NCBI RefSeq assembly: GCF_003344865.1
Contig: NZ_CP031165.1
Coordinates: 5,151,910-5,215,909 of the forward strand
Length of the DNA stretch: 64,000 nucleotides
Source: Euzebya pacifica
GTDB taxonomy: Bacteria; Actinomycetota; Nitriliruptoria; Euzebyales; Euzebyaceae
Reading direction: 5' to 3'
Shown here piece by piece: positions 5,042-25,436 of this stretch (within the stretch, counting starts at the first letter, position 1; every line of letters starts with the position of its first letter). The position numbers and the translations under genes are program-made. The notes below the pieces were generated by a model that was not told the origin of the DNA, did no database searches, and saw only the letters and a list, made by a program, of their open reading frames with translations.

Positions 5042-7276
5042 TTATGCAGCCGCTGCGAACAGCACTGCGAAGACGAAGACGCCGATGAACATCGCGCCGG
5101 CATAGAACTGCACGTTGCCTGACTGTGCGAACTTGATCAGGCCACCGGTCCAGTTGGCGCCGGTTCCGGCACCGTTGATCGCGCCGTCGATGACCTTCTG
5201 GTCCACGACCCGGTACACGCCACGGCCGAGGCTGCGGGTGCCGATGCCGGCCAGGTACACGACCCGGTCGATCACGTTGTCGTTGATCCAGTAGACGGCC
5301 GGGCTGATCCGGTCGCGGACGGTGGTCATGATCAGGCCGGAGTACAGGTCGTCCAGGAAGTACTTGCGCTGCAGGACGGTGGTGACCAACCCGAGGTTGT
5401 TGAACGGGTCCTCGGCCGGGGCCTTGTAGGTGCGGTACATGAAGTAGCCAGCGGCGAGGCCGGCGACACCGAGCACCGTCGAGCCGACGGCGAGGCTGAG
5501 GAAGAAGTGCGGGGGGTGTCCCTCGAAGTACTCCAGGGACGGCATCGTCCAGGCCGCGAACCCCCACGAGTGGGCGAAGTCGAACGGCAGGTTGATGAAG
5601 CCGATGGCCAGCGCCGGCACCGACAGGGCGATCAGCGGCCACTTCATGGACCGCGGCGACTCGTGCGGCGCCGGGTGCGTGTCGTCGATCTTGCCGCGGT
5701 AGTCCCCGAAGAAGGTCATCGTGGTGGCGCGGGCCATGTAGAAGGCCGTCACGAACCCACCCAGGCCGCCGAGGATCCAGACGAGGTTGCCCGTGTAGCC
5801 CATCGAGTCGAAGGCACCGGCCAGCACCTCGTCCTTGGACCAGAACCCGGCCAGCGGGAAGATCGCGGACAGGGCCAGCGTGCCGATGATCCAGGTCCAG
5901 AACGTCGCCGGCATGTACTTGCGCAGCCCACCCATGTTGACCATGTCGTTGGAGTGCACGGCGTGGATGACCGAGCCGGAGGCAAGGAACAGCAGCGCCT
6001 TGAAGAACCCGTGGGTGAAGAGGTGGAAGATGCCTGCCGTGTAGCTGAAGGCCAGCGCCGCGACCATGTAGCCGAGCTGCGACACCGTGGAGTAGGCCAG
6101 GACACGCTTGATGTCGTCCTGCACCAGGGCGAGGAAGCCCATGGAGAACAGCGTGATGGCGCCGATGACCGCGATGACGGCAAGGGCCGCCGGGGACAGC
6201 TGGTACACGGGGTAGATCCGCGCGACGAGGAAGATGCCCGCGGTCACCATCGTGGCCGCGTGGATCAGGGCCGACACGGGCGTCGGGCCGGCCATGGCAT
6301 CGGGGAGCCAGGTCTGCAGGGGGAACTGCGCGGACTTGCCGATGGCGCCGATGAACAGCGAGATCAGCCCGAAGGTCAGCAACCCCGTCTCGAGGGGTGC
6401 ACCACCCGCCTGCTCGGCGTGGGTGGCCATGTCGATGATCTCGCCGATGTTGAAGGTGCCGAACTGCGCCCACAGGGAGACCACACCGACCATCAGCCCG
6501 ACGTCACCGAACTTGGTGGTCAGGAAGGCCTTCTGGGCGGCGTGCTGGTTGGAGCGGCCCTCCCAGTAGAAGCCGATCAGCAGGAACGAACAGACACCGA
6601 CCAGCTCCCAGCCGACGAGCAGCTGCAGCATGTTGTTGGCGATCACCATGATCAGCATCGACATGGTGAACAGGCTGAGGAGCGTGAAGTAGTAGGTGTA
6701 CCGGGGCTCGCCCTTCATGTAGCCCGTGGAGTAGATGTGCACCATCAGGCTGACGAAGGTGACCAGCAGGAACATCATCGCGGCCAGGCCGTCGATGCGC
6801 TGGCCGGCTTCGAGCTCGAAGTCACCGCCGAGCTGGCCGAGCGACAACGATCCCTCGTTGACGAAGCTCGAGATGCCCTCGGGGATCTCGATCGCCTCCC
6901 CACCCGCGGCCGCGAGGTCGAGGCCCTCGAGTCCTGCGGCGGCCACCATGATCCCGTCGAGCGGGGACCCCGATCGCAGGGACGTCTCTTCGGTGTGCGC
7001 CTCGTCGGCGGCCTCACCGTCCTCGGCGTGGTCACCCTCCTCGGCGTGATCGGCGTCCTCGGCGTGGGTCTCGTGGTACTCCTCGAGATCGGCCACGGCC
7101 TGGACGTTGGCGGAGAACACCTCGACGGCGACCAGGACCGACAGGGCGAAGGCAAGGGCCAGCGCAGTGATGCCGAACTCGGCGCCCTTGCCCTTCATCT
7201 TCTTGCCGAAGAGCAGGGTCAGGACCGCCGAGACCGCCGGCAGCACCGGGATCAACCATGCGTAGTCAGAGATCAT
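5042..7276 (-). CDS. nuoL: NADH-quinone oxidoreductase subunit L (first complex I), with His/acid-rich external loop
   Basis: A 744-residue NuoL, longer than the usual 610-680. Core motifs are normal: [40 protein letters not shown] and the long C-terminal lateral helix with the final transmembrane anchor. The loop between helices 2 and 3 (about residues 56-158) is enlarged and carries a stretch at residues 64-99 built of repeated H-A-E-D/E units, rich in His, Asp and Glu. By topology this loop faces outside the membrane. The second NuoL of this window lacks it. Start ATG at 7276, 14 bp after the nuoK stop. Confidence 0.96.
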   Translation of the reverse strand: MISDYAWLIPVLPAVSAVLTLLFGKKMKGKGAEFGITALALAFALSVLVAVEVFSANVQAVADLEEYHETHAEDADHAEEGDHAEDGEAADEAHTEETSLRSGSPLDGIMVAAAGLEGLDLAAAGGEAIEIPEGISSFVNEGSLSLGQLGGDFELEAGQRIDGLAAMMFLLVTFVSLMVHIYSTGYMKGEPRYTYYFTLLSLFTMSMLIMVIANNMLQLLVGWELVGVCSFLLIGFYWEGRSNQHAAQKAFLTTKFGDVGLMVGVVSLWAQFGTFNIGEIIDMATHAEQAGGAPLETGLLTFGLISLFIGAIGKSAQFPLQTWLPDAMAGPTPVSALIHAATMVTAGIFLVARIYPVYQLSPAALAVIAVIGAITLFSMGFLALVQDDIKRVLAYSTVSQLGYMVAALAFSYTAGIFHLFTHGFFKALLFLASGSVIHAVHSNDMVNMGGLRKYMPATFWTWIIGTLALSAIFPLAGFWSKDEVLAGAFDSMGYTGNLVWILGGLGGFVTAFYMARATTMTFFGDYRGKIDDTHPAPHESPRSMKWPLIALSVPALAIGFINLPFDFAHSWGFAAWTMPSLEYFEGHPPHFFLSLAVGSTVLGVAGLAAGYFMYRTYKAPAEDPFNNLGLVTTVLQRKYFLDDLYSGLIMTTVRDRISPAVYWINDNVIDRVVYLAGIGTRSLGRGVYRVVDQKVIDGAINGAGTGANWTGGLIKFAQSGNVQFYAGAMFIGVFVFAVLFAAAA

Positions 7277-7290
7277 GAGAACAGGAGTTC

Positions 7291-7605
7291 CTAGTAGCGC
7301 ATCAGGTCAGCGTCGTCGATGTTGACGCTGGCGCGGTTGCGGTAGAGCAGGAGGATGATGGCCAGGCCGATGCCGACCTCGGCCGCGCCGACGGCCAGGA
7401 CCAGCAGCGCGAAGATCTGACCGGTCAGGATCAGGTCGCCGTTGGATGCACCGAAGGCGCCGAAGGTGACCAGGTTGATGGTGACGGCGGAGAGCATCAT
7501 CTCCACGCTCATCAGCACCAGCACCGCGTTGCGGCGGGCCAGGACGCCGTAGACGCCGAGGCAGAACAACAGGGCCGCGAAGGCCAGGGGGAACACGGCA
7601 AGCAC
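7291..7605 (-). CDS. nuoK: NADH-quinone oxidoreductase subunit K (first complex I)
   Basis: A 104-residue protein with three transmembrane helices. The two channel glutamates are visible in LMSVEMMLSAV (second helix) and GAAEVGIGLAII (third helix). The start is GTG at 7605, sharing one base with the TAG stop of nuoJ (TAGTG), which implies translational coupling. Typical length for NuoK. Confidence 0.96.
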   Translation of the reverse strand: MLAVFPLAFAALLFCLGVYGVLARRNAVLVLMSVEMMLSAVTINLVTFGAFGASNGDLILTGQIFALLVLAVGAAEVGIGLAIILLLYRNRASVNIDDADLMRY

Positions 7606-8243
7606 TAGGAGTCCGCCTTTCCGCTGATCGCCGCGGGGGACTGGCTGTCACGGACGAACGCGCCGGGCTCGGCCCAGCTGTCGCCCTCACGGGCAGCCGG
7701 GACCTCGGAACGGTCGATGTAGTCGCCGTCGACCGGGTCGGGGCCCTCGCCGACCTCCTGCCGGGCGATGATGATCGCACCGACCAGGGAGACGGTCAGC
7801 AGGAAGCCGAGCGCCAGCAGCGGGAAGGCCCACTCGACGTAGAGGAAGCTGGCCAGGTCGATCGTGAGCGTCGGCACGAGCTCCAGGCGGGTGTCGCCGA
7901 AGCTGCCGATGATGACGACCATCATGAACACGAACAGCGCGGCCGCCACGCCGAAGGCCAACCGAGTGTTCTCGGTGTCCTCCCGGATGGGGCCGATGGG
8001 GGCTCGCGTCAGCATGAGGCCGAACAGGATCAGGACGATCACGGCACCGGCGTAGACCAGCACCTGGGTCCAGGCGAGGAACTCCGCGCCGAGCAGCAGG
8101 AACACCCCGGCCACGCTCAGCAGTGCGATGACGAGGTACAGCGCGGAGTGGACGACGTTCTTGCTGACCACCACGAGCAGCGCTGCGGCGCCGCCGAGGA
8201 TGAAGGTCAGCAGCATCCAGTAGTCAGCGAGCTGCAGATCCAT
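7605..8243 (-). CDS. nuoJ: NADH-quinone oxidoreductase subunit J (first complex I)
   Basis: A 212-residue membrane subunit with five predicted helices. It has the NVVHSALYLVIALLSVAGVFLLL segment and LVYAGAVIVLILFGLML, which match the NuoJ helix 3 region that forms the pi-bulge switch in complex I. A polar tail of about 45 residues follows the last helix. The ATG at 8243 overlaps the nuoI stop by one base (TGATG). Confidence 0.95.
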   Translation of the reverse strand: MDLQLADYWMLLTFILGGAAALLVVVSKNVVHSALYLVIALLSVAGVFLLLGAEFLAWTQVLVYAGAVIVLILFGLMLTRAPIGPIREDTENTRLAFGVAAALFVFMMVVIIGSFGDTRLELVPTLTIDLASFLYVEWAFPLLALGFLLTVSLVGAIIIARQEVGEGPDPVDGDYIDRSEVPAAREGDSWAEPGAFVRDSQSPAAISGKADS

Positions 8244-9040
8244 CAGGAATCGCCTCCCTCGGAGCCCTGCTGCTCGGCAAGGATCCGCTTCTTCTCGGCA
8301 CGCACGTACGCGGCCTTGGCCTTGGCCCTGGCGACGCGTTCGGACTTGCCCTCGGCGACCAGCTTGTCGAACACGGCTTGGTCGATCTGCGCCTCGACGT
8401 GGATGTCGTCCTCGGGACGCTTCTTCACCTCGGGCTTGGCCTCGGCGGCCGGGCCGGCGTCACCAGCGGCCGGTGCGGCCTTGGCGACGGCGGCTGCGGC
8501 GGTGGCGGCCTTCTTGCGTGCCGCATCGAGACCCTGCTGGATCTCCTTGGGCAGCTCGGCCCCGTACTCCAGCTCGGGCGGCGGCGGCACCGTGTCCATC
8601 CACTTGCGCAGCTGCTCCTTCTCGTGGGTCAGCTCCTGGATGGTGACCGTGGAGTACTCGAACTCCGGCGACCAGAACAGGGCGTCGAAGGGGCAGACCT
8701 CCACGCAGATGCCGCAGTACATGCACAGCGCGAAGTCGATCGCGAAGCGGTCGAGGATGTTGCGTGTCCGGGCGCGTCCGCCGTCCTTGGGCGGCACCGT
8801 CTCCTTGTGGGAGTCGATGTAGATGCACCAGTCGGGGCACTCGCGGCTGCACAGCATGCAGACGGTGCAGTTCTCCTCCATCAGCGCGATCACACCGCGG
8901 GTACGCGGCGGGAGGTCGGGCTTGGTGTGGGGGTACTGCACGGTCGTCGGCTTGGTGAACATGGTCTTCAGCGTGATGCCGAGACCCTTCAGCAGGCCGA
9001 TCTGTGGGGCGCCGCGCTTGGGCTTGGTGGGGGTACTCAT
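8243..9040 (-). CDS. nuoI: NADH-quinone oxidoreductase subunit I (first complex I), extended C-terminus
   Basis: A 265-residue two-[4Fe-4S] ferredoxin-like subunit that carries electrons along the peripheral arm. Ligands are Cys 58, 61, 64, 68 ([12 protein letters not shown]) and Cys 106, 109, 112, 116 ([12 protein letters not shown]). The usual protein ends near residue 165. Here about 95 more residues follow: an Ala/Lys/Pro-rich linker and then a charged helix with many Arg and Lys (residues about 215-258). The extension is encoded at 8243-8533. Because this operon lacks nuoEFG, the tail could dock an alternative electron donor. That is inference. Confidence 0.95.
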
Positions 9041-9043
9041 CAG

Positions 9044-10072
9044 CTATGCGACCACCTTGAAGATCGCCACGACGACGATCTGCAGGATTGCGAGGGGGAT
9101 CATGACGGTCCACGCGAACTTCTGGAGCTGGTCCTCGCGGAGACGTGGGAAGGTGGACCGCAGCCACGTCATCACACCGACCAGCAGGAGGATCTTGCCG
9201 AGCGTCACCACCGTGCCGAGCAGGTTGGCGAGCAGCGCGTTGTCGGGCATCGGGATGCCCGGCCAGATGTACCAACCACCCAGGTACATCACGACGATGA
9301 AGGCGCTGAAGACGACCATGCCGGCGAACTCGGTCAGCAGGAAGAAGGCGAAGCGCAGGCCGGAGTACTCCGTCATGTGCCCCGCGATCACCTCCGAGTC
9401 GGCGATCGGCATGTCGAAGGGCGGCCGGTTCAGCTCGGCGAGGACGGCGCAGGAGAACACGAACAGGCCGATGACCTGTGGCACGGCGTAGGGCACGGGG
9501 ATGCCGAAGGCGGTGTAGTTCGCCTGGGCCTCGACGATGCCGACCATGGACATGGTGCCGGCCTGCATCACGATGGCGGCCGCGGCCAGGAACAGCGGGA
9601 TCTCGTAGGCGATCAGCTGGGCTGCTTCACGCAGGCCACCGATCAGGGAGTACTTCGACGCCGAGCCCCAGGCGGCCATCATCACGCCGACCACCGACAC
9701 CGACGACACCGCGAGGGCGAAGAAGATGCCGATGTCGAGCGCCTCGGCGAAGCCGCCGGGCGACAACGGGATGACGACGATCATCAGGAGGGTGGGGATC
9801 AGCACCACACCGGGGGCGAGGTTGAACACCCACTTGTCGGCCGTGGCCGGGCGGATGTCCTCCTTCTGGATGAACTTGATGCCGTCGGCGACGAGCTGCA
9901 GGGCACCGAACGGACCGGCTTCCATCGGCCCGAGCCGGTTCTGCATGAACGCCATGACCTTGTGTTCCTGGTACCCGGCCACCAAGGGGATGGTCAGGAA
10001 GAACACGACACAACCGGCCAGCTTCAGCAGAAGCGCAAGCCAGAAGTTGTCGAGTGCGAGGACTGATTCCAT
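9044..10072 (-). CDS. nuoH: NADH-quinone oxidoreductase subunit H (first complex I)
   Basis: A 342-residue membrane subunit that forms the quinone entry channel at the junction of the two arms. Signature stretches include MAFMQNRLGPMEAGPFGALQ, ADGIKFIQKEDIRP, and NRPPFDMPIADSEVIAGHMTEYSG with the conserved acidic residues. Length is normal. The stop lies 3 bp before the nuoI start. Confidence 0.96.
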   Translation of the reverse strand: MESVLALDNFWLALLLKLAGCVVFFLTIPLVAGYQEHKVMAFMQNRLGPMEAGPFGALQLVADGIKFIQKEDIRPATADKWVFNLAPGVVLIPTLLMIVVIPLSPGGFAEALDIGIFFALAVSSVSVVGVMMAAWGSASKYSLIGGLREAAQLIAYEIPLFLAAAAIVMQAGTMSMVGIVEAQANYTAFGIPVPYAVPQVIGLFVFSCAVLAELNRPPFDMPIADSEVIAGHMTEYSGLRFAFFLLTEFAGMVVFSAFIVVMYLGGWYIWPGIPMPDNALLANLLGTVVTLGKILLLVGVMTWLRSTFPRLREDQLQKFAWTVMIPLAILQIVVVAIFKVVA

Positions 10073-10124
10073 GAGTACGTGTGTTTCCTGATCCGACTAG
10101 CGGGCGGTGGCGTTGGCGATCGCG

Positions 10125-11306
10125 CTAGCGATCGACGTCACCGACGACGAAGAACACCGAGCCGAGGATGGCGATCATGTCGGCCATGAGCTGGCCCTCG
10201 AGCAGGTACGGGATGGCCTGGACGTTGGAGAACGACGGCGTGCGCATCTTCATGCGCCACGGGGTCTTCTGCCCGTCGCTGACCAGGTAGTAGCCGCCCT
10301 GGCCGAGGGGGTTCTCGGTGCGGACGTGGATGGCGCCCTCGGGCGCCTTCACGATCTTGGGCAGCTTCACGTTGACCGGGCCCGCGGGGATGTTGTCGTG
10401 GACCTGCTCGATGATGTTGACGCTGGCCTTCATCCGCTCGATGAGGCAGTAGAAGCGGTCGTAGCTGTCGCCGTTGGTGCCGGTCGGCACGTGCACGTCG
10501 ACCTTGTCGTAGGCGGCGTAGGGCTGCGAGACGCGGACGTCCTCGTTGATGCCGGTGGCGTGCAGGGCACAGCCGCTGACGCCGTAGTCCAGCGCCACGT
10601 CCTGCGGCAGGATGCCGACGTTCTTGGTGCGGGCGATGAAGATCTCGTTGCCCATCAGCAGGTCTTCGTACTGCTGGATGGCGCCCTTCATGCGCTGGGC
10701 CATGCCGGCGCTGGCCTGCAGGAACCCGCGTGGCAGGTCCTCCTTCAGGCCGCCGACACGGGTGTAGGTGTAGTGCAGGCGCCCACCGGTGGCGGCCTCG
10801 AGGATGTTCTGGATGTCCTCGCGCTCACGGACCGTGTAGAACATCGGCGTCAGCGCACCGAGCTCCAGGGCGTAGGAGCCCAGCAGGAGCAGGTGGTTGA
10901 GGATCCGGTTCCACTCCGCCATCAGCACGCGGATCCACTGGGCCCGCTCGGGGACCTCGAGCTCCATCATGGTCTCCACCGCGATGGCGACGCCGAGCTC
11001 GTTGCAGAACGCGCTCAGCCAGTCGTGGCGGTTGACCAGGGCGATGATCTGGCGGTAGTCACGCGCCTCGGCGAGCTTCTCGAAGCCGCGGTGCATGTAG
11101 CCGATGACCGGCTGGGCCTTCTTGATCTGCTCGCCGTCGAGGTCGATGACCAGGCGGAGCACACCGTGGGTGGCCGGGTGGGCGGGGCCCACGTTGAGGT
11201 TCATCGACGTGGTGTCGAGCTCCGCACCGCGGAACTCCACCAGCATGCCCTCCTGCGGGCCGCCGGGGATGACCGGGGCGTTGGGGCGGGCCAGGGTCTC
11301 ACTCAT
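10125..11306 (-). CDS. nuoD: NADH-quinone oxidoreductase subunit D (first complex I)
   Basis: A 393-residue 49-kDa-type subunit that lines the quinone site with NuoB. The quinone-binding GPAHPATHG motif (usually GPQHPSTHG) lies near residue 28, and the C-terminus ends VVGDVDR as usual. I chose the ATG at 11306, which overlaps the nuoC stop by 8 bp. The frame stays open upstream, but that part is antisense-like read-through of nuoC. The stop is followed by a 52-bp gap before nuoH. Confidence 0.95.
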   Translation of the reverse strand: MSETLARPNAPVIPGGPQEGMLVEFRGAELDTTSMNLNVGPAHPATHGVLRLVIDLDGEQIKKAQPVIGYMHRGFEKLAEARDYRQIIALVNRHDWLSAFCNELGVAIAVETMMELEVPERAQWIRVLMAEWNRILNHLLLLGSYALELGALTPMFYTVREREDIQNILEAATGGRLHYTYTRVGGLKEDLPRGFLQASAGMAQRMKGAIQQYEDLLMGNEIFIARTKNVGILPQDVALDYGVSGCALHATGINEDVRVSQPYAAYDKVDVHVPTGTNGDSYDRFYCLIERMKASVNIIEQVHDNIPAGPVNVKLPKIVKAPEGAIHVRTENPLGQGGYYLVSDGQKTPWRMKMRTPSFSNVQAIPYLLEGQLMADMIAILGSVFFVVGDVDR

Positions 11307-12606
11307 CGGTGCTGCCCTTCTCATCGGGGTTCTCGTCGTCGGTGGAGCCGGCGTCGCCGACCCCGTCCTCGGCAGCGGTGTGGCCGGTGTCGACGGGGGT
11401 GCCGCCACGGGAGACGTCTGCTTCGTCGGGTCGAGTCGGCTCGGCGAACGTGCCGGTCCCGGCCTCGCCGACGCCGGCGGCCTCGCGTGAAGCAGCGTCA
11501 TCGGGGTGCGCCTCGTCGGTGACCGACGCGGTGCGCGCGGTGGAGTCCTCGAGGTCGTGGGTGCCCTCGGCCTCCACGCCCGGCGTGCCGCCGGACTCCG
11601 CCGGACCACCCTTGGCGAGCTGGGCCTCGACGTCGGGGTCGATGTCGGGTTCTCCGGAGTCCTTCTTGTCCCCCGGGGCCGGCATGCCGCTGCCCACGGT
11701 GGAGCCGGCCGCGGCGTCCTTGGCGACCGCCGTGTCGGCGATCTCGGCCGCACCCTCGGGCGTGGTCGGGTCCGGGGTCCCCGGCGAGGTCTCCCTGCCG
11801 GCAGCAGCCTGGGCGGCTTCGCGCGCGGAGCCCGGCTCGGCGTCGTCGACGCCACCGTCGGCCGCAGGGGCCGGTCCGGCCTGCGCCGCAGCCCTTTCTG
11901 TGTCCTCTGGCTGCGGCGCCGAGCCGGCCGCCTCCGAGCCAGTGGGATTCTCGGCGGCCTGCGCCGCAGCCTTTTCCTCTGCCTTCCGCTTCCGAGCCTC
12001 CGCAGCCTTCGCCTTGGCGCGTTCGGCCTTGGCCTTGGCGGCCGCGGCGCGGTCGCCGGGGTCGGCACCGGGGGCGGGCGCGGCGGCCTTGGGCTTGGCG
12101 TCGCCCTCGTCGTCGCCACCGGGCTCCTTGGCGCCCGGCCACGGCTTGACCTCACGGGAGGCCAGCAGGAACTCCTTGCGCAGGGGCCAGCCCTCGAAGT
12201 TCTCCACCGTCAGGATCCGCGGCAGCAGGCCGGGGTGGCCCTCGAACACGATGCCGAACATGTCGTAGGCCTCGCGCTCGTGCCAGTCGGCACCGCGCCA
12301 CACGTCGGTGAGGGTGGCCACGCGCGGCTCGTCACGGCCGCCCGGGACCATGGTCTTCAGCAGCACGCCGTCGCGGGTGATGTGGTTGTAGACGCGCACC
12401 ACGACGCTGAAGCCGTCCTCGCGCTCGTCGACCCCACCGAGGAAGTCGAAGAAGGTCATGCCCAGGGTCTGCTTGCAGAACCGGGCGACCTGCGGGTAGG
12501 CCTCGGGGTCGACGGTGAGGGTCAGCTGGTCGTGGGCGACGTCGGCCGCGAGCACGCGTTCGCCGAGCTCGTCGCGGAAACGATCCGCCAGTGCGTTGGG
12601 AGTCAT
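11299..12606 (-). CDS. nuoC: NADH-quinone oxidoreductase subunit C (first complex I), with long disordered C-terminal tail
   Basis: Residues 1-160 form a normal 30-kDa-type subunit, with DWHEREAYDMFGIVFEGHP and the LPRILTVENFEGWPLRKEF segment. About 275 further residues follow (encoded at 11299-12126), made mostly of Ala, Glu, Asp, Pro, Gly, Ser and Thr, with a Lys/Ala-rich helix-like stretch at the beginning. The tail is predicted to be disordered and has no recognised domain. The start is ATG at 12606, 13 bp past the nuoB stop; upstream codons in frame overlap nuoB and are rejected. Total 435 residues, against about 200 in ordinary NuoC. Confidence 0.93.
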   Translation of the reverse strand: MTPNALADRFRDELGERVLAADVAHDQLTLTVDPEAYPQVARFCKQTLGMTFFDFLGGVDEREDGFSVVVRVYNHITRDGVLLKTMVPGGRDEPRVATLTDVWRGADWHEREAYDMFGIVFEGHPGLLPRILTVENFEGWPLRKEFLLASREVKPWPGAKEPGGDDEGDAKPKAAAPAPGADPGDRAAAAKAKAERAKAKAAEARKRKAEEKAAAQAAENPTGSEAAGSAPQPEDTERAAAQAGPAPAADGGVDDAEPGSAREAAQAAAGRETSPGTPDPTTPEGAAEIADTAVAKDAAAGSTVGSGMPAPGDKKDSGEPDIDPDVEAQLAKGGPAESGGTPGVEAEGTHDLEDSTARTASVTDEAHPDDAASREAAGVGEAGTGTFAEPTRPDEADVSRGGTPVDTGHTAAEDGVGDAGSTDDENPDEKGSTDE

Positions 12607-12619
12607 GTGGTCAGCGGGC

Positions 12620-13168
12620 CTACATCGGGTCCGACAGCGGGTGGCGGGTGGGGTCGCCACCGCCGACGACGATCGGCTGGCGGGCGTCGCGCTCGGCGTA
12701 GCGGTCCTTCAGGGACTCGTTGCCGATCAGCTCCTGCAGGTGGACGATGCCCTCCAGCAGGGCCTCCGGGCGCGGCGGGCAGCCGGGGACGTACACGTCG
12801 ACGGGGATGATCTGGTCGACGCCCTTCGTCACCGAGTAGCTGTCCCAGTACGGGCCACCGCAGTTGGAGCAGGACCCGAAGCTGATGACGTACTTCGGCT
12901 CGGGCATCTGGTCGTAGAGCCGCTTGACGGCCGGGGCCATCTTGTCGGTCAACGTCCCCGCGACGATCATCACGTCGGCCTGCCGGGGGGCGTGGGCGAA
13001 CGGGATGACCCCGAAGCGGATGAAGTCGTGGCGGGCGGTGGATGCGGCGATGAACTCGATCGCACAGCACGCCAGCCCGAAGTTGTAGACCCAGAGCGAG
13101 TACTTGCGTCCCCAGTTGAGGACGAAGCGCAGCGGCTTCGGGACTTCTACCTGGTCGCTCAGACCCAC
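12620..13168 (-). CDS. nuoB: NADH-quinone oxidoreductase subunit B (first complex I)
   Basis: A 182-residue subunit that binds cluster N2, the last cluster before quinone. Ligands are the tandem Cys 34-Cys 35 in [10 protein letters not shown], the cysteine of ISFGSC and the one in [10 protein letters not shown]. An additional cysteine follows in SNCGG. Start is GTG at 13168, inside the last codons of nuoA (10-bp overlap). Confidence 0.96.
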
Positions 13169-13542
13169 TTCAGCACACCCTTCTTGTATTCGTACGGCAG
13201 CGTGACGGTCACGAAGAACAGGAAGACCAGCATCACACCGAGCACGAAGCCCTGGTCCGGACCAGCCGTCTCGAGGTAGTTCGCCCAGGGGAACACGAAC
13301 AGCGTCTCCACGTCGAAGATGACGAACATGAAGGCGAACATGTAGTACCGGATGTTGGTCTGGGACCAGCCGAACCCGACGGGGTCGATGCCTGACTCGA
13401 AGGCCACGCGCTTCTCGCCGTATCGGCCGTACTCGCGCTTGGGGCTGACGAGCCGGCCGAGCGTGAAGGCAACAGCGACGAGCGCGATGCCGGCAACCAG
13501 CAGCGCGATCACCGTGCCGTAGGCCTCGTAGTACTCGGTCAT
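13159..13542 (-). CDS. nuoA: NADH-quinone oxidoreductase subunit A (first complex I)
   Basis: A 127-residue, three-helix subunit and the first gene of the operon. It has the conserved [20 protein letters not shown] loop and [16 protein letters not shown] in the second helix. The ATG at 13542 is preceded by AGGAG at good spacing, so the longer frame upstream is not used. The subunit helps form the loop around the quinone cavity. Confidence 0.95.
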
Positions 13543-13641
13543 GATTCTCCTGTGGAGGGGGACGTCACGCGCGGCTCGATGGGTGTCGCCGGGTGCAGAG
13601 GGCACCGACGCGTGCACCCCATGAGGGGCCGCGGGGGCATG

Positions 13642-13772: not shown

Positions 13773-15140
13773 TCACATGTCGTCGCGCCGGATCGCGTAC
13801 CCGAAGTCTCTCGTGCGGCGACCCCTCCCACGCAGCCACGTCACGGCGTCCTGGGCGGGAACGGAGGGGTCCTCGGCCATCCTCCGGGCCAACCAGCCGG
13901 CGATCAGCGGCGCCGCGAAGGAGGTGCCGGACCACAACGCGAGGGGGTCGGTGCCGAAGGTCTCCGGCTGCGGGTCGAAGCGCGGGTTCTCCTCCCCCGG
14001 CACATGGGTGCTGACGAGTCCCTCGCCGATCGTGGAGAAGTCCACCCAGCTGCCACGGGTCGACCAGGTGGAGGGAGTGACCCCGTCGTGGGCCAGCGCC
14101 GCGACGCCGAGCGCACGCTTGGACGCCCCCGGCCACTTGGGTTCGGTGTTGCCGACGTTGCCCGCGGCCGCGACGACGAGGATGTCGGGGGACAACGCGT
14201 CGAGGGCCTGCTCGATGGCGATGGGCGGGTTCCCGTCGACGGTGGTGGTGCCGAAGGAGAGGTTCAGCACCCCCCGGGGGCGGGCCCAGCCGTTGGCCGC
14301 CGACACCGCCGCGATCCAGCCGGCCGCCCGTTCGATGGCTTCGACGACGTCGACCTCACTGCCGCCCCCGACCGCCGTGAGGGCGCGGAAGGACCCGAGG
14401 TGCACGTCGGGGTAGGCCTGGCGCACCATGCCCAGCGCGAAGGCGCCGTGGCCGGCAGCGGGGTCGAGCATCGGCGGCGCGGTGACGGTGACGTCGGCCA
14501 TGGTGATGCGGTCGACCGCCGAGGTGCCGTGCTCGACGTGGGCGAGCCACCCACCGGGACCGGCGTGCACGCCCTCCGGAACGCCGGTGTCGACCACGGC
14601 GACGGGGGTGGCGGACTCGTCATCGCCCTTGGCCGGGTCGTGGGGCTGCATCCGGGAGGTGGGGTGTTCCGGGCTGGCCCCGGCCTTGGCGGTCCATCCG
14701 CGCAGGGCCACGAAGTGGTTGGCCGATCCACGGATCCCCTTGTCGGCCATGACCTCGAGGGCCTTCGCCAGGTCCGCGGGGTCGCCGCTGAACGTGACGA
14801 TCGCATCGCTGCGGCTGCGCTCTCGGTAGCCGACGGCCGCGAGGGCGTCGACGGCCTCCTGGTGGTCGGTGGGATCGCTCGTGTGGACGACCACCTGGCC
14901 TGCCACCACCGGAACCGGGACGACGGAGCGTCCGGGCGCGTCCATGAGCTGCAGCCGGGGGATCTCCAGGCCGTTCACCGCCCGGCCCGCCCACTCGTTG
15001 TGCGCGGCCACGCTGTCGCGCATCACCCGGGCATGCCACTCGTCGTCGGCGAGCCGTTCGAGCGCCTCGGCCTGCCTGGCCACCTGCGCCTTCTCCTCCG
15101 GCGTGCGGTCATCGGTCTTGTCACTGGCCACGTCAGTCAC
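13773..15140 (-). CDS. Intracellular subtilisin-like serine protease (S8) paired with CHAT protease
   Basis: A 455-residue S8 peptidase. Catalytic residues are visible: Asp184 (AVVDTGVP), His231 (AGHGAFALGM), the oxyanion Asn328 (AAAGNVGN) and Ser407 (SGTSFAAPLIAG). There is no signal peptide or membrane segment, so it should act in the cytoplasm. The first 170 residues form an unidentified N-terminal region that could be an inhibitory or recognition domain. Start is GTG at 15140 with TACGAC 9 nt upstream. It is divergent from the TPR-CHAT gene, with 121 bp between the start codons, suggesting joint control and possibly a protease cascade. The function is inferred from neighbourhood only. Confidence 0.85.
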   Translation of the reverse strand: MTDVASDKTDDRTPEEKAQVARQAEALERLADDEWHARVMRDSVAAHNEWAGRAVNGLEIPRLQLMDAPGRSVVPVPVVAGQVVVHTSDPTDHQEAVDALAAVGYRERSRSDAIVTFSGDPADLAKALEVMADKGIRGSANHFVALRGWTAKAGASPEHPTSRMQPHDPAKGDDESATPVAVVDTGVPEGVHAGPGGWLAHVEHGTSAVDRITMADVTVTAPPMLDPAAGHGAFALGMVRQAYPDVHLGSFRALTAVGGGSEVDVVEAIERAAGWIAAVSAANGWARPRGVLNLSFGTTTVDGNPPIAIEQALDALSPDILVVAAAGNVGNTEPKWPGASKRALGVAALAHDGVTPSTWSTRGSWVDFSTIGEGLVSTHVPGEENPRFDPQPETFGTDPLALWSGTSFAAPLIAGWLARRMAEDPSVPAQDAVTWLRGRGRRTRDFGYAIRRDDM

Positions 15141-15149
15141 CCCTCAGGT

Positions 15150-15155
15150 GTCGTA
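15150..15155 (-). promoter_or_regulatory. Candidate -10 box (TACGAC) for the S8 protease gene
   Basis: TACGAC reads on the minus strand, 9 nt before the GTG start at 15140. No usable ribosome site fits between them, so a leaderless transcript is likely. Confidence 0.35.
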
Positions 15156-15162
15156 TGTGTGT

Positions 15163-15182
15163 GCGATGGCGGTCGCCATCGC
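15163..15182. promoter_or_regulatory. 20-bp palindrome between divergent protease genes (candidate operator)
   Basis: GCGATGGCG and CGCCATCGC form perfect 9-bp arms separated by GT. It lies between the S8 and CHAT genes, beyond the S8 -10 box, where one bound protein could control both promoters. Confidence 0.4.
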
Positions 15183-15245
15183 GGGACGATAGACGTCCAC
15201 GGGACACTCCGGAGCGACGACGGGCGCTGGTGATACGTGCTGGTC

Positions 15246-15251
15246 TAGCGT
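15246..15251 (+). promoter_or_regulatory. Candidate -10 box (TAGCGT) for the CHAT gene
   Basis: TAGCGT ends 10 nt before the ATG at 15262. No Shine-Dalgarno sequence is present, which fits leaderless initiation. Confidence 0.35.
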
Positions 15252-15261
15252 GCGGGGCGCG

Positions 15262-17916
15262 ATGGCCGTTTCCACCCCCCTCCCAGACCGTGCCGACGCC
15301 GTTGCCGAGCTGGTCCTGGCCGACCCCCATGCAGGACTGGCCCTTGCCGAGGAGGTTGCCGCGGAGGCACGGGCCGCAGGCGCCGACGAACCGCTGGCCG
15401 TGGTGCTGCGCGCCGCCGCGTGGGCCGCTCGGGAGGTCTTCAGCCACGACCGCGCCGAGGCCCTGCTCGACGAGTGCATCACCGTCTGCGAGCACGCAGG
15501 ACTGGCCGAGCGGCTCGTCGAGGCGTTGGTGACCCGGTCGGCGATCCACCTGGAGCGGGGTCGGACGGACCTGGCCAGGGCCGACGTCGCGCTGGCCGGC
15601 CAGTCCGCGAGCCCCGCCCAGCAGGCCGAGGTGGCGTTCGCCGATGCGCTGGTCCTGCAGACCGCCGGCGACACCCTGGCTGCCGTCGCCGGCTACGAAC
15701 GCGCACGGGACCTGCTGACCGGAGGAGACGCCAACCTGGCCGGCAAGATCGGCAACAACCTGGGCGAGCTGCTGACGATGCTGGGGCAGCACGAACGGGC
15801 CGAGGAGGTCCTGGCCGACGCGGCGAGGACGGCGGCCCCGTTCCGTGGCGGCCTGTACCTGGCCATCACCGCCAACCGGGCCGAGCTGGCCCTGCGTCGC
15901 GGGGCCCCGGCGCTGGCGATGACCCGCTACGCCGAGGTCGAGCAGCTGTGCATCGAGCTGGACGTGCCGTTGGCCGAGCTGTACCGCGAGAAGGCCGACG
16001 CGTTGTCGTCGATGTACCTGCTGGACGAGGCTGCCGATGCCGCCGCGATGGCTGTGGCCGAGGTCCGCCGGGCCGGCGGAGTGCCCATCCTCCTCGTGGA
16101 CACGCTCCTTCCCCTCGCCCGGGCAGCGCTGGCCCGTGGACGCCTGGAGGAGGCCGCCGATGCCGCGTCGGAGGCCGCGGCGCTGGCGGCGGGACAACAA
16201 CGGGCGGGACGCGAGGCCGAGGCCACGTTGCTCTCGCTGCGGGCACGGGCCGGCCGCGCCCCCTCCCCCGACCTGCTCGAGGAGATCGAGGTGACCGAGG
16301 CCCGGCTGCGCACCCTGGGACATCGGCTGGCCGCCGTGGACGCCGCGTTGCTGCTGGGCGATGTCGCCTTCGCGGTCGGGGCCCCAGGGGTGGCCGCCGA
16401 GGCCTGGCGACGTGCGGCCGATGACGGGGCCGGCACCGATGACGGCTCGGCCATGATGCGGGTGCAGCGGCATCGGGCCCTGGCGGGCGCGGCGCGGGTC
16501 GACGGGGACGTGGCCGCGTGCCTCGGACACTGTCGTGCGGGGCTGGCGGAGCTGGAGGGGTACCGGGCGACCGTGGGGTCAGCGGAGCTGCGGTCGCGGG
16601 CCGCGGCCCACGGGACGGTGCTGGCGTCCACGGGGCTGGCCGCCGCCGTCCACGCGGGTGACGTGACGCTGGTGTGGGAGTGGATGGAGCGCAGCCGATC
16701 GGTACCGGTCGCCGGGCCGACGGGCGCCGACGCGCAGGTGGCCACGTGGCTGGCGGAGATCCGCGCCCTGGAGGCGGCGCTGTCGGACCCCGAGCTGGCC
16801 GAGGACGGCCGGGCGGCGGCACGGGTCCACGAGCTCGGGGCCCTCGAACGGCGTGTACGCGAACGGCTGTGGGCCAGCGACGAAGGGCCGACCCCCGGCG
16901 GGGCGACCGCCGACGGTGACGCCGGAGGGTGGTTGGACCGCCTGCACGAGCGGCTCGGGGCCGACGGCGCGCTCGTGCAGGTCCAGCGACACGGCGAGGC
17001 GTTGCTGGCGGTCGTGGCGTTCGGCGGCGACCTCGCCCTCGTCGAGCTGGGCCCGGCTGACGCCATCACCCAGGCAGCGGTCCAGCTCGGCGAGGCCATG
17101 CGCCGCGTGACGGCATCGCGGTCGACCCGGATGGTCGACAGCGCCCGCCGTGGTGCCGAGCGGCTGGTGGAGGACCTGGCCGGGCGGGTCTGGACGCCGC
17201 TGGCACCGTTGCTGGACAGGGCCAGCGACGTGGTCGTGGTGCCGCCCGCGGACCTGCTGGCCGTGCCGTGGTCGGTGCTCGGCGGCCTGGCCGAGGTCCC
17301 GGTCACCCTCGACGTGTCGGCACGGTCGTGGATGGCGTCGGTTGACCGGCAGGCCGCGTCGGACCGGGTCGTCCTGGCCGCCGGACCGCGGCTGGAGGCC
17401 GCCGAGCACGAGACGGCCCTGCTGGCCGAGGTGTTCCCCGACGCCACGCTGCTGGTCGGTGAGGCGGCGACGGGGCAGGCCGTCCTGGCCGCCGCCGAGG
17501 GTGCCGGGCTGGTGCACCTTGCCTGCCACGGTCGGCTGCGGACCGACTCCCCGTGGTTCTCCTCCATCGAGCTGGCCGACGGCCCGGTCACCGTGCACGA
17601 GGTGACCGCGCTGTCACGGCCGGCCCACCGGTGGGTGCTGGCCGCCTGCGAGCTGGGCCACCCGGGCGACCTCGTCGGACCGGAGCTGGAGGGGATGGTC
17701 GGGGCGTTGCTGGCCAGCGGCGCCGGTGCGGTCGTGGCGTCGACCGCGAACCTGCCCGATGACGTGTCCGGCCCGGTCATGGCCGCCCTGCACACCGAGC
17801 TCGCGGCCGGCGCCACCATGGCCCGCGCCCTGTGGTCGGCCCGCCGCACCCTCGACCCCTCCTCCCCCCACGGGTGGGCAGCCGGGCTGATGCTGGTGTG
17901 CTACGGCGGCGGTTGA
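15262..17916 (+). CDS. TPR-CHAT caspase-like cysteine protease
   Basis: An 884-residue cytoplasmic protein. Residues about 1-460 are Ala/Leu/Glu-rich helical repeats of the tetratricopeptide type (for example AEEVLADAARTAAPFRGGLY). The C-terminal part, from about 650, is a CHAT domain. Its catalytic pair is seen as His756 in LVHLACHGRL and Cys796 in WVLAACELG, followed by EGMVGALLASGAGAVVAS and a GWAAGLMLVCYG end. CHAT proteases belong to the caspase clan and usually cut a partner when their TPR part senses a signal. Divergent from an S8 protease. The ATG at 15262 fits the nearby TAGCGT; a GTG at 15250 is the alternative. The substrate is unknown. Confidence 0.88.
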   Translation: MAVSTPLPDRADAVAELVLADPHAGLALAEEVAAEARAAGADEPLAVVLRAAAWAAREVFSHDRAEALLDECITVCEHAGLAERLVEALVTRSAIHLERGRTDLARADVALAGQSASPAQQAEVAFADALVLQTAGDTLAAVAGYERARDLLTGGDANLAGKIGNNLGELLTMLGQHERAEEVLADAARTAAPFRGGLYLAITANRAELALRRGAPALAMTRYAEVEQLCIELDVPLAELYREKADALSSMYLLDEAADAAAMAVAEVRRAGGVPILLVDTLLPLARAALARGRLEEAADAASEAAALAAGQQRAGREAEATLLSLRARAGRAPSPDLLEEIEVTEARLRTLGHRLAAVDAALLLGDVAFAVGAPGVAAEAWRRAADDGAGTDDGSAMMRVQRHRALAGAARVDGDVAACLGHCRAGLAELEGYRATVGSAELRSRAAAHGTVLASTGLAAAVHAGDVTLVWEWMERSRSVPVAGPTGADAQVATWLAEIRALEAALSDPELAEDGRAAARVHELGALERRVRERLWASDEGPTPGGATADGDAGGWLDRLHERLGADGALVQVQRHGEALLAVVAFGGDLALVELGPADAITQAAVQLGEAMRRVTASRSTRMVDSARRGAERLVEDLAGRVWTPLAPLLDRASDVVVVPPADLLAVPWSVLGGLAEVPVTLDVSARSWMASVDRQAASDRVVLAAGPRLEAAEHETALLAEVFPDATLLVGEAATGQAVLAAAEGAGLVHLACHGRLRTDSPWFSSIELADGPVTVHEVTALSRPAHRWVLAACELGHPGDLVGPELEGMVGALLASGAGAVVASTANLPDDVSGPVMAALHTELAAGATMARALWSARRTLDPSSPHGWAAGLMLVCYGGG

Positions 17917-19602: not shown

Positions 19603-21041
19603 TGGCGGGCCGACAACCGAGCGGCCGACCCCGAGCAGGACTCCCCCGAACGATGGTCTCCCGAGACGCCGACCGTGTCGTCGTCGTGTTGGCAGCAGCG
19701 ATCCTGTCGCTGCTGCTCGCCGGTGTGCTCGTGCTCCAGCAGTCGACGCCCGCGCCCGCCCTCAGCCTGATCACCCTCAACCGCGACCTGCCCGAGGAGG
19801 CCGAGACAGCCCTGGCGGAGGTACCACCGTCGCTGCCGCTCGTGGACGCCGAGGACGTGCCGGCACCCACTCCGACCGCCGTGCCGGCGCCGACCGCCCA
19901 GCCGACGCCGGTCGTGACCGCTGCCCCCACGCCGCAACCGCCTGCAGCGACCGGACCGAGCTTCCCCTCCCCCATCCGCGGCGTATGGGTCCACGTGCTC
20001 GACGGCACCCTGCTGACCCGCGGTTCCATCGAGGCGATGCTCGACGACGTGGTCAACGCCGGCGGCAACACCGTGGTGGTGGAGGTGGCGCGCCGCTACG
20101 ACTCCTACTACGCCTCGGACTTCCTCGACCGCGGACAGGACGCCGGCTTCGAGCCCGGCCTCGATGTCCTGCAGGCCGTCATCGACGGGGCTGCCCCCCG
20201 GGGCCTGAGCGTGCACGCCTGGTTCACCGCGATGCCGGCATGGCAGCCCGAGACCGCCAACACGCCCGAGCCGCACAACTGGACCTACACCCAGCACGGC
20301 GCCCCGGCCCCGGACGACCAGAAGTGGCTGACGCGCAGCGCCACCGGCGAATGGGGCGAGTACCTCGACCCCGGCCATCCCGACGTGCAGAACCTCGTCA
20401 TCGCGACCGCGGCCGAGCTGGCCACCTACGACGTCGACGCCGTGCACGTGGACTACCTGCGCTACCCGGGGGCGGAGTGGGGCTACAACCCCGTCGCGCT
20501 CGGTCGCTTCCAGGCCGACACCGGCCGCACGGACATCCCGGCCCCCTCCGACCAGCAGTTCTCCGACTGGCGCCGACAGCAGACCACCGACATCGCCATC
20601 CGCATGCGCGAGGCCGTCCAGCAGGTGGACCCCACGGTCGGGGTCTCGGCGGCGCTGATCGCCTGGGGCGACGGCCCGGTCAACGGCCGCGTGTTCGAGC
20701 AGACCCCGGCGTGGAGCCAGGTCTTCCAGCCGTGGCCGCAGTGGATGGCCGCGGGGATCATCGACGTGGCGATGCCGATGGTGTACTTCCGCGAGTCACG
20801 CCACGCCAGCTTCCACCGCAACTGGATGTCCTACATCGCCGGGCTGCGGCAGGCGACCGGCGTGATGACCGCGCCGGGCCAGGGGTCGTGGCTGAACGAC
20901 GTCGACCAGTCGCTGCTGCAGCTGAGCGAGGCCGCCCCGTTCATGGACGGCGAGGTGCTGTTCAGCTACCAGCAGACCGCCGCGGGCGAGGACCCGAAGG
21001 CGCTGCTGCCGGCGCTGGCGGGCTCCCTCTGGGGCCAGTGA
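19602..21041 (+). CDS. Exported GHL10-type glycoside hydrolase
   Basis: A 479-residue protein. An N-terminal hydrophobic segment (VVVLAAAILSLLLAGVLVLQ) acts as signal anchor. A Pro/Thr/Ala-rich linker follows (about residues 85-120), then a TIM-barrel domain of the DUF187/GHL10 family: RGVWVHVLDGTLLT, GGNTVVVEVARRYDSYY, the VDAVHVDYLRYPG strand with its conserved Asp and Tyr, and a late VAMPMVYFRES strand. Related proteins are thought to act on peptidoglycan or exopolysaccharide. Convergent with a lipoprotein gene, with only 10 bp between the stops. Confidence 0.8.
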   Translation: MAGRQPSGRPRAGLPRTMVSRDADRVVVVLAAAILSLLLAGVLVLQQSTPAPALSLITLNRDLPEEAETALAEVPPSLPLVDAEDVPAPTPTAVPAPTAQPTPVVTAAPTPQPPAATGPSFPSPIRGVWVHVLDGTLLTRGSIEAMLDDVVNAGGNTVVVEVARRYDSYYASDFLDRGQDAGFEPGLDVLQAVIDGAAPRGLSVHAWFTAMPAWQPETANTPEPHNWTYTQHGAPAPDDQKWLTRSATGEWGEYLDPGHPDVQNLVIATAAELATYDVDAVHVDYLRYPGAEWGYNPVALGRFQADTGRTDIPAPSDQQFSDWRRQQTTDIAIRMREAVQQVDPTVGVSAALIAWGDGPVNGRVFEQTPAWSQVFQPWPQWMAAGIIDVAMPMVYFRESRHASFHRNWMSYIAGLRQATGVMTAPGQGSWLNDVDQSLLQLSEAAPFMDGEVLFSYQQTAAGEDPKALLPALAGSLWGQ

Positions 21042-23663: not shown

Positions 23664-25436
23664 TCACCCAGCAAACGTACCTGCCTGCTGCGCGAGGCTC
23701 ACCAGCGCGCCGGGCAGGACACCCAGCACGACGACGGCCACGGCAGCCAGGCCGATACCGAGCATGGCCGCGTCGGATCGGGGCGGGTCGGCGATGGCCA
23801 GCGACGTCGCCGTCTCGTCCTCCACGAACATCGAGGCGATGATCCGCAGGTAGAAGAAGGCGGCGATCACGCTGGAGACGACACCGACGATGACCAGCAG
23901 CAGCTGACCGGCGTCGATGCCCGCCCGGAAGATCGCGAACTTGGCGGTGAACCCGGCGGTACCCGGGATGCCGGCGAGGGAGATCAGGAACAGCCCCAGC
24001 GCCATGGCGGGTTGCGGATACCGGCGGCCGAGGCCACGGAGGTCATCGAGGGTCACGGACTTCTTGAGGCGACGCTCGAAGAACGCCACGACCCCGAAGG
24101 AGCCGACCGACATGAACGTGTAGACCAGCAGGTACAGCAGGATCGCGCCGACGGACTCACGACCGGCGGCCCGTGTCCCGTCCGCCCCGAGCGGGCTGAT
24201 GGAGACCAGGCCGATGGCCACGTAGCCAGCGTGGGCGACCGCGGAGTAGGCGAGGATGCGCTTGACGTCGGTCTGCACGATCGCCAGGACTGCGCCGCCG
24301 ATCATGGTGACGACGGCCACGCCGATGATGACGGGCGCCCAGATCCACTGGAGGGGGGCCAGCGCACCGACGAAGACCCGGACGAACGCGGCGAACGCAG
24401 CAGCCTTGGTGGCCGCGGCCATGAAGCCGGTAACCGGGGTCGGGGCGCCCTGGTAGACGTCCGGGGTCCAGAAGTGGAACGGCACCAGCGCGGTCTTGAA
24501 CGCGAAGCCGACCAACAGCATCACCAGGGCCACGACGGTCAGGCCGTCGGGGGCGGTCAGCGAGGCAAGCGCCCGGCCGACCTCAGGGATGTTGGTGGAG
24601 CCCGCCACGCCGTAGCACAGGGCGATGCCGTACAGCAGCAGGGCGGAGGAGAACGCCCCCAGCAGGAAGTACTTCATCGCCGACTCCTGGCTGTTCAGGT
24701 CACGCTTGGCGAGGCCAGCCATGACGTACAGCGCGAGGGAGAGGATCTCCACGGCGATGAAAACGAGGATCAGGTCGTTGGCGGCGGCCAGCAAGGTCAT
24801 GCCGGTCGCAGCGAACAGCAGCAGCGGGTAGTACTCGCCGCGGTGGATCTGGCGCTCCTCCATGTAGGCGAAGCCGATCGGGATGGTGATCATGCCGGCC
24901 AGGCACACCGAGAAGCGGGTGAACAGGGCGACGCCGTCGACGGCTGCCATGCCCGCGAGCAACGAGTCGGTGCCGACCAGCGCCACGGCGTCCTGCCCAC
25001 CGCTGACGGCGACGAGCTGTCCGGCGTAGGTCTGCCACTGCCAGATGGTCACACCCAGCGCGGCGGCGAAGCCGAGGAAGGTGATGACGGCGCCGAGGCG
25101 ACGAGGGGTGTCCTTCAGCCAGGCCGTCAGGCCGAACTGCACGACCGCGCCGACGGCGACGATCCCTGCCAGCAACGGCACGTTGGAACCGGTGGTGGAG
25201 GCGTTCTGCCAGTAGGCCGCGCCACAGCAGGCGAGGATGACGCCACCCGCGACGAAGGAAGCCTGCAGGCGGTTGCGGTTGTTGCGTCCGGTCGGGGTGA
25301 CGCCGGCGGTGTCCAGCAGCAGGGCCAGGATGCCGACGCCGAAGAGCACCAGCTCGGGGCTGATCGCCGCCCACGGGAAGTCGACGATCTGTGCGCCCGT
25401 CTGGGCCAGCACGGGATGCGCGAGCAGGGAGGTCAC
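23664..25436 (-). CDS. nuoN: NADH-quinone oxidoreductase subunit N (second complex I)
   Basis: A 590-residue antiporter-like subunit, about 100 residues longer than usual. The extra length comes from additional hydrophobic and loop material near the N-terminus and in the middle (SGGQDAVALVGTDSLLAGMAA). Core motifs are present: EILSLALYVMAG, VGFAFKTALVPFHFWTPDVYQGAPTPVTG and GIPGTAGFTAKFAIF. Start is GTG at 25436, overlapping the nuoM stop by 4 bp (GTGA). Confidence 0.95.
   Translation of the reverse strand: MTSLLAHPVLAQTGAQIVDFPWAAISPELVLFGVGILALLLDTAGVTPTGRNNRNRLQASFVAGGVILACCGAAYWQNASTTGSNVPLLAGIVAVGAVVQFGLTAWLKDTPRRLGAVITFLGFAAALGVTIWQWQTYAGQLVAVSGGQDAVALVGTDSLLAGMAAVDGVALFTRFSVCLAGMITIPIGFAYMEERQIHRGEYYPLLLFAATGMTLLAAANDLILVFIAVEILSLALYVMAGLAKRDLNSQESAMKYFLLGAFSSALLLYGIALCYGVAGSTNIPEVGRALASLTAPDGLTVVALVMLLVGFAFKTALVPFHFWTPDVYQGAPTPVTGFMAAATKAAAFAAFVRVFVGALAPLQWIWAPVIIGVAVVTMIGGAVLAIVQTDVKRILAYSAVAHAGYVAIGLVSISPLGADGTRAAGRESVGAILLYLLVYTFMSVGSFGVVAFFERRLKKSVTLDDLRGLGRRYPQPAMALGLFLISLAGIPGTAGFTAKFAIFRAGIDAGQLLLVIVGVVSSVIAAFFYLRIIASMFVEDETATSLAIADPPRSDAAMLGIGLAAVAVVVLGVLPGALVSLAQQAGTFAG

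Follow-up and report, generated by a model that had tools for sequence, protein, structure and literature searches.

According to the available passages of a review (PMC8999054), the extracytoplasmic function (ECF) sigma factors known as ECF54 share their gene context with a carboxypeptidase, a subtilase and CHAT proteins, and control of the sigma factor by proteolysis has been proposed for them. In Craspase, of CRISPR type III-E, the sigma factor CASP-sigma is inhibited by Csx30, which the TPR-CHAT protease Csx29 cleaves (passages of PMC10028731). In the CRISPR-linked CalpL/CalpT/CalpS system, a Lon-type protease triggered by cyclic oligoadenylate, an anti-sigma factor and an ECF sigma factor form one signaling unit (passages of PMC11417357). 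Among systems with a worked-out logic, these two come nearest to the one considered here. We analyzed a divergent gene pair of Euzebya pacifica, an S8 subtilase gene and a TPR-CHAT protease gene, in a stretch of 64,000 nucleotides of contig NZ_CP031165.1 (positions 5,151,910 to 5,215,909; hereafter the window). On balance, we favor the reading that these two genes form the protease arm of a sigma pathway of the ECF54 context, and that the other arm, a sigma factor gene and the gene for a small protein referred to here as THIRD, has been relocated in this lineage. The sigma factor probably turns on S8, and the TPR-CHAT protein would be the constitutive trigger, in a logic that resembles Craspase but involves no CRISPR.

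The cast of genes is already known as the ECF54 context: an ECF sigma factor, a carboxypeptidase-regulatory-like protein, a subtilase and a CHAT protein, in Actinobacteria, as the passages of PMC8999054 describe it. The likeness here is one of gene context. Subtilase and CHAT genes occur together in the window, whereas the sigma factor of the same family is not in the same genetic context, and a carboxypeptidase-regulatory-like protein stands beside it only at that unlinked site; the two proteases are unlinked from the sigma/THIRD operon. The same passages give neither a promoter nor a division of labor, and, as far as these sources extend, a subtilase/CHAT neighborhood has been noted in print for these sigma factors with no worked-out mechanism. 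Neither the promoter nor the split form nor the exchange of proteases reported below was described in any paper found by a literature search that covered few subscription journals and none of the primary ECF54 papers. Like Craspase, the system combines a TPR-CHAT protease bearing a His/Cys dyad with an ECF sigma factor and few partners. Unlike Craspase, it adds a subtilisin zymogen, and THIRD has about 155 amino acids versus 565 for Csx30; a THIRD profile matched no chain named Csx30 in the PDB up to an E value of 10. No Cas7-11/gRAMP gene was seen in a first reading of the window, for which no profile search was made.

The preliminary description of this DNA had an S8 protease facing a TPR-CHAT protease across 121 bp, and coordinates (gap 15141-15261), Pfam matches and complete open reading frames (ORFs) agree with it. 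It had also named S8 as the natural partner of CHAT and suggested counting the two as neighbors across genomes, and the pairing held. In a whole-family scan of seven genomes, an S8 gene lay within 4 kb of 10 of 11 CHAT genes, against 0.24 expected from S8 density (P = 1.7e-16 under the density model); the only CHAT match lacking a nearby S8 was a weak ORF of 241 amino acids. Among 150 genomes of relatives, S8 matches (E up to 1e-20) were present in seven. CHAT was adjacent and divergent in six of these; G007, the remaining genome, has both genes at contig ends. When named genomes were scanned for relatives of CHAT, 80 loci were kept, all actinobacterial. S8 was present at 75, in a head-to-head arrangement with CHAT at 70 and in tandem at 5, and at the 5 loci without S8 the CHAT gene is at or near a contig start.

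Profiles of neighboring genes identified two further families. The first is an ECF sigma factor, with Sigma70_r2 in 12 of 12 members. The second, THIRD, shows weak similarity to CarboxypepD_reg in 5 of 12 members, and the THIRD of E. pacifica matches that Pfam family at 3e-5, under the curated cut-off. All four genes (CHAT, S8, sigma and THIRD) occur at 68 of the 80 named loci, and sigma and THIRD are same-strand neighbors at 67 of the 68 loci that have both. In the 150 genomes, CHAT was found in 26 and THIRD in 30, including every CHAT genome (hypergeometric 3e-25), with equal copy numbers of CHAT and THIRD in 24 of the 26. Of the other four THIRD genomes, G114 also has CHAT and S8, G038 matches weakly, and no CHAT reached the threshold in G011 or G017.

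No sigma or THIRD match was found in the window. Both genes are instead located about 2.5 Mb away on the same chromosome, where they overlap (Table 1). We compared 31 CHAT-bearing regions, comprising the window and 30 of 31 fetched regions, the remaining one holding only the S8 of G007. A local sigma and THIRD were present in 22 and the local pair was missing from nine: the window (genome G000) and the regions of G002, G005, G006, G007, G009, G016 and two loci of G104. Of these, the G006 region lacks THIRD but contains a divergent match to sigma. All eight of these split genomes carry THIRD elsewhere, with an ECF sigma factor of the same family beside it in seven. Quick trees unite the split genomes, with support of 100 for CHAT, 98 for S8 (together with G018) and 82 for sigma; the CHAT tree omits 5 of 38 rows, all fragments (G034_2, G018 and its two further pieces, and G041).

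A promoter common to S8 and the sigma operon ties S8 to the sigma factor. Six-mers enriched upstream of the CHAT/S8 pair and of sigma proved to be the same word, seen in opposite orientations. In the direction of S8 or sigma, the pattern reads GTATCA-N15-[GC]CTC[CT], which occurs 53 times at the 80 named loci versus 0.8 expected. It was found in the upstream regions of 33 of 104 S8 genes, 9 of 101 sigma genes and 1 of 99 THIRD genes, and it pointed at CHAT in 0 of 107. The genome of E. pacifica has six exact matches, among them the S8 site of the window and one located 140 bp upstream of the unlinked sigma ORF. The naive chance of sites at both S8 and sigma is 4e-9, for windows picked after the sites had been seen. 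With the last base left free, G005 and G009 carry the pattern at both the S8 and sigma loci, and G011 and G006 carry it at sigma; the G007 sigma gene has a 16-base spacer. We infer that this sigma factor recognizes GTATCA-N15-[GC]CTC[CT] promoters; in the most likely view, S8 is a gene under transcriptional control of the pathway and not (or not solely) a protein that CHAT cuts.

Both proteases look catalytically competent, a competence that is conserved, because the active-site residues are invariant in relatives. The S8 ORF is complete, with a GTG start, and matches Peptidase_S8 (Pfam E 3.9e-17). None of its catalytic residues D184, H231, N328 (oxyanion) and S407 varies across 23 aligned family members. 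In CHAT, H756 and C796 of the His/Cys dyad are invariant among 22 aligned members, and profile matches in the PDB include 8rot_B (E 3e-13), Csx29 (7y9x_B) and a TPR-CHAT protein (7zoq_A). An ATG at 15262 yields the 884-residue CHAT protein; a GTG at 15250 is an alternative start.

A structure of S8 was predicted from an alignment of the window protein and 29 relatives (predicted local distance difference test [pLDDT], 84; predicted template modeling score, 0.90). In this model, residues 14 to 51 form a helical hairpin, followed by an inhibitor I9-like propeptide domain and a linker in which pLDDT is low at residues 149 to 156 and 162 to 168. The top structural match was the unautoprocessed pro-subtilisin E 3whi_A (Z 32.2; root mean square deviation, 3.2), in an alignment that spans model residues 80 to 455 with 304 residues aligned. 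As in pro-subtilisins with an I9 propeptide (3whi, 3afg and 2e1p), propeptide and intact S8 domain align over the model. Unlike them, the window protein shows no hydrophobic signal sequence at its N terminus and has the extra N-terminal hairpin. No Pfam match to an I9 propeptide was obtained for the window S8. Judged by the model, the N-terminal region is mostly a subtilisin propeptide, and S8 is thus predicted to be a zymogen that would need this part removed, which agrees with the earlier suggestion that a cut in the N-terminal part might activate it. Among S8 relatives, 15 of 108 ORFs have, in the linker that leads into the catalytic domain, 4 to 11 exact tandem hexapeptide repeats. The units vary between genomes yet retain an aromatic residue, and the linker of the window S8 has no such repeats.

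These findings can be arranged in a pathway. The TPR-CHAT protein would be made constitutively and act as a signal-triggered initiator protease. Once triggered, it would release the sigma factor from inhibition; the simplest way would be cleavage of THIRD, which by analogy with Csx29, Csx30 and CASP-sigma would act as a soluble anti-sigma factor. The freed sigma factor would then read the observed promoter sites, amplify its own operon and induce S8. The S8 zymogen would become active once its I9-like propeptide is removed, by S8 itself or by CHAT, and direct cleavage by CHAT could serve as a second key on the induced zymogen. Active S8 would be an induced cytoplasmic protease or a feedback brake on sigma and THIRD. 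More tentatively, the unit may be a CRISPR-free counterpart of Craspase in Actinobacteria, in which a TPR-CHAT sensor cuts a small anti-sigma factor, the sigma factor induces a subtilisin- or trypsin-like zymogen as executor, transcription thereby couples the two proteases, and the whole works with its halves 2.5 Mb apart. If so, CRISPR type III-E would look like one recruitment of a general TPR-CHAT/sigma switch. The promoter with its one-way orientation to the serine protease, together with the split arrangement and the replacement of S8 by a trypsin-like enzyme, turns a vague neighborhood into a testable circuit.

Several observations weigh against this pathway. ECF54 sigma factors are described in the passages of PMC8999054 as having no anti-sigma factor. 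The three N-terminal helices of the THIRD model are of low confidence (pLDDT about 65), the beta-sandwich being confident, and a structure search for an anti-sigma fold returned Ig/FN3-like sandwiches on top, none below an E value of 0.001. The THIRD tree did not recover the split clade, which was not rejected (approximately unbiased test, p-AU 0.58), and in G104 no sigma gene was found near either of the two unlinked THIRD genes. G002 has the pattern at sigma and a degenerate -10 at its S8 promoter. Genome-wide, six genomes gave 24 exact matches versus 9 for a reversed control, a modest excess, so that most of the other matches are probably due to chance. Finally, S8 has a secreted look in some four-gene modules (L057, L064, L066, L067 and L068), a poor fit with a cytoplasmic effector role.

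The head-to-head arrangement at most loci, the modeled zymogen architecture with its flexible linker, the hexapeptide repeats in the linkers of some relatives and the persistence of the pair in the nine regions without local sigma and THIRD would also suit a direct cascade. CHAT would cut the propeptide or linker of S8, S8 would be the executioner, and the sigma factor would be incidental or tune supply. The retention of THIRD in all 26 CHAT genomes and the promoter common to S8 and the sigma operon argue against this reading. Moreover, subtilisin-like zymogens commonly self-process. We regard this direct cascade, the reading of the preliminary description, as unlikely, and the two proteases are not supported as a self-contained cascade.

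The sigma-type promoter at S8 would also fit a negative feedback of the kind proposed for ECF54, in which S8 and CHAT would keep the system off by degrading the sigma factor (or THIRD) and sigma-induced S8 would end the response; proteolytic regulation of these sigma factors is itself a proposal of the review (PMC8999054, in the passages available). Such feedback leaves unexplained both a sensor-like TPR protease that has no sigma promoter and the near one-to-one retention of THIRD, and we consider it rather improbable. An independent role for the window pair, outside the sigma pathway that it once belonged to (in defense or cell death, for instance), with sigma and THIRD elsewhere as an inherited coincidence, is very improbable: the window lacks both genes and the pair was found in just one of three other genomes of the genus that were searched, but every split genome has an unlinked THIRD, nearly always with sigma alongside, and G000, G005 and G009 have the same promoter at both loci.

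Table 1. Positions of the features discussed. Unprefixed coordinates refer to the window, except for THIRD, which is numbered as the sigma gene above it; L and G handles denote loci and genomes.
Feature	Position	Strand	Basis or remark
S8 subtilase gene, 455 amino acids, predicted cytoplasmic zymogen	13773-15140	-	Pfam, active-site alignment, structure model
S8 catalytic domain, residues 179-455	13776-14606	-	Pfam, alignment, model
Flexible linker of S8, residues 146-178, likely activation-cleavage region	14607-14705	-	Model
Propeptide (inhibitor I9)-like domain of S8, residues 63-145	14706-14954	-	beta-alpha-beta-beta-alpha-beta in model
Near-perfect inverted repeat CGATGGCG-2 nt-CGCCATCG, in S8 leader between promoter and start	15164-15181	.	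Read from sequence
Putative promoter GTATCA-N15-GCTCC, reads towards S8	15211-15236	-	Sole window match, 0.04 expected
TPR-CHAT protease gene, 884 amino acids	15262-17916	+	Pfam CHAT 4.3e-22, weak TPR_12
CHAT catalytic domain	17164-17886	+	Pfam CHAT, residues 639-879 of 888-residue ORF
Unlinked sigma gene, own genome	G000:C1:2657890-2658555		Family match of module sigma
Unlinked THIRD gene, own genome	2658552-2659019		Overlaps sigma gene
S8 loci with hexapeptide repeats	L044, L051, L054, L055, L056, L058, L059, L060, L061, L062, L106, L127, L152		
STAND-type ATPase loci	L122, L124, L130, L134, L140, L141, L143, L145, L147, L156, L160		
Cyclic-nucleotide-binding-like gene, 162 amino acids	L188:3657; L191:3922	-; -	
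NAL1/trypsin-like protease, G014	L045:8335-9861	-	
NAL1/trypsin-like protease, G016	L050:11583-13115	+	
NAL1/trypsin-like protease, G003	L059:15474-16502	+	

In the sigma pathway that we favor, the serine-protease slot appears interchangeable, because in G014 and G016 a NAL1/trypsin-like protease takes the place of S8, head to head with CHAT (the two are 53 percent identical to each other). G003 has a NAL1/trypsin-like protease behind the same promoter. The G014 substitute contains a 10-residue repeat with a core similar to the S8 hexapeptides.

Downstream of the promoter stand 31 S8 ORFs, 10 sigma ORFs and 1 THIRD ORF; besides the families listed here, the remainder are single ORFs, mostly unconvincing. 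Eleven, located near CHAT, encode a conserved Streptomyces STAND-type ATPase that carries a LuxR-type DNA-binding end. This ATPase, a candidate further target gene, starts about 33 nucleotides past the promoter element, and its transcript is therefore probably leaderless. Two further ORFs are class III nucleotide cyclases, and a gene for a cyclic-nucleotide-binding-like protein lies behind the promoter in E. pacifica and G002. Of the six exact matches in the E. pacifica genome, this gene, S8 and sigma are the convincing targets; two more are followed by poor ORFs, and the sixth is 365 nucleotides upstream of a rhodanese-like gene. The same genome has a second, complete four-gene module (L067; G000:C1:3849000-3868900), whose S8 has a signal-peptide-like N terminus.

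The arms of the inverted repeat in the S8 leader are identical in the sister genome G002. Placement of the pair in a defense island was considered and rejected: in the window, PADLOC gave no CHAT match and weak S8 matches (16.7 bits to the IetS/IteS model, below its cut-off of 900), and the neighbors are nuo genes and ordinary enzymes. The IetAS and other "subtilase" defense proteins of PADLOC belong to the same S8 superfamily, whereas the partner here is CHAT. The role in defense or programmed death raised in the preliminary description thus finds no support in the locus. An ARAGORN prediction of tRNA-Ser (act) at 20069-20169 falls within a GHL10 glycosidase-like ORF and is probably a false positive. 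The pair itself sits between NADH dehydrogenase-like (nuo) gene groups at window positions 5042-13617 and 23664-25436, labels that were read from the sequence, with nuoA alone profile-tested, and G002 has a similar arrangement of the pair among nuo genes.

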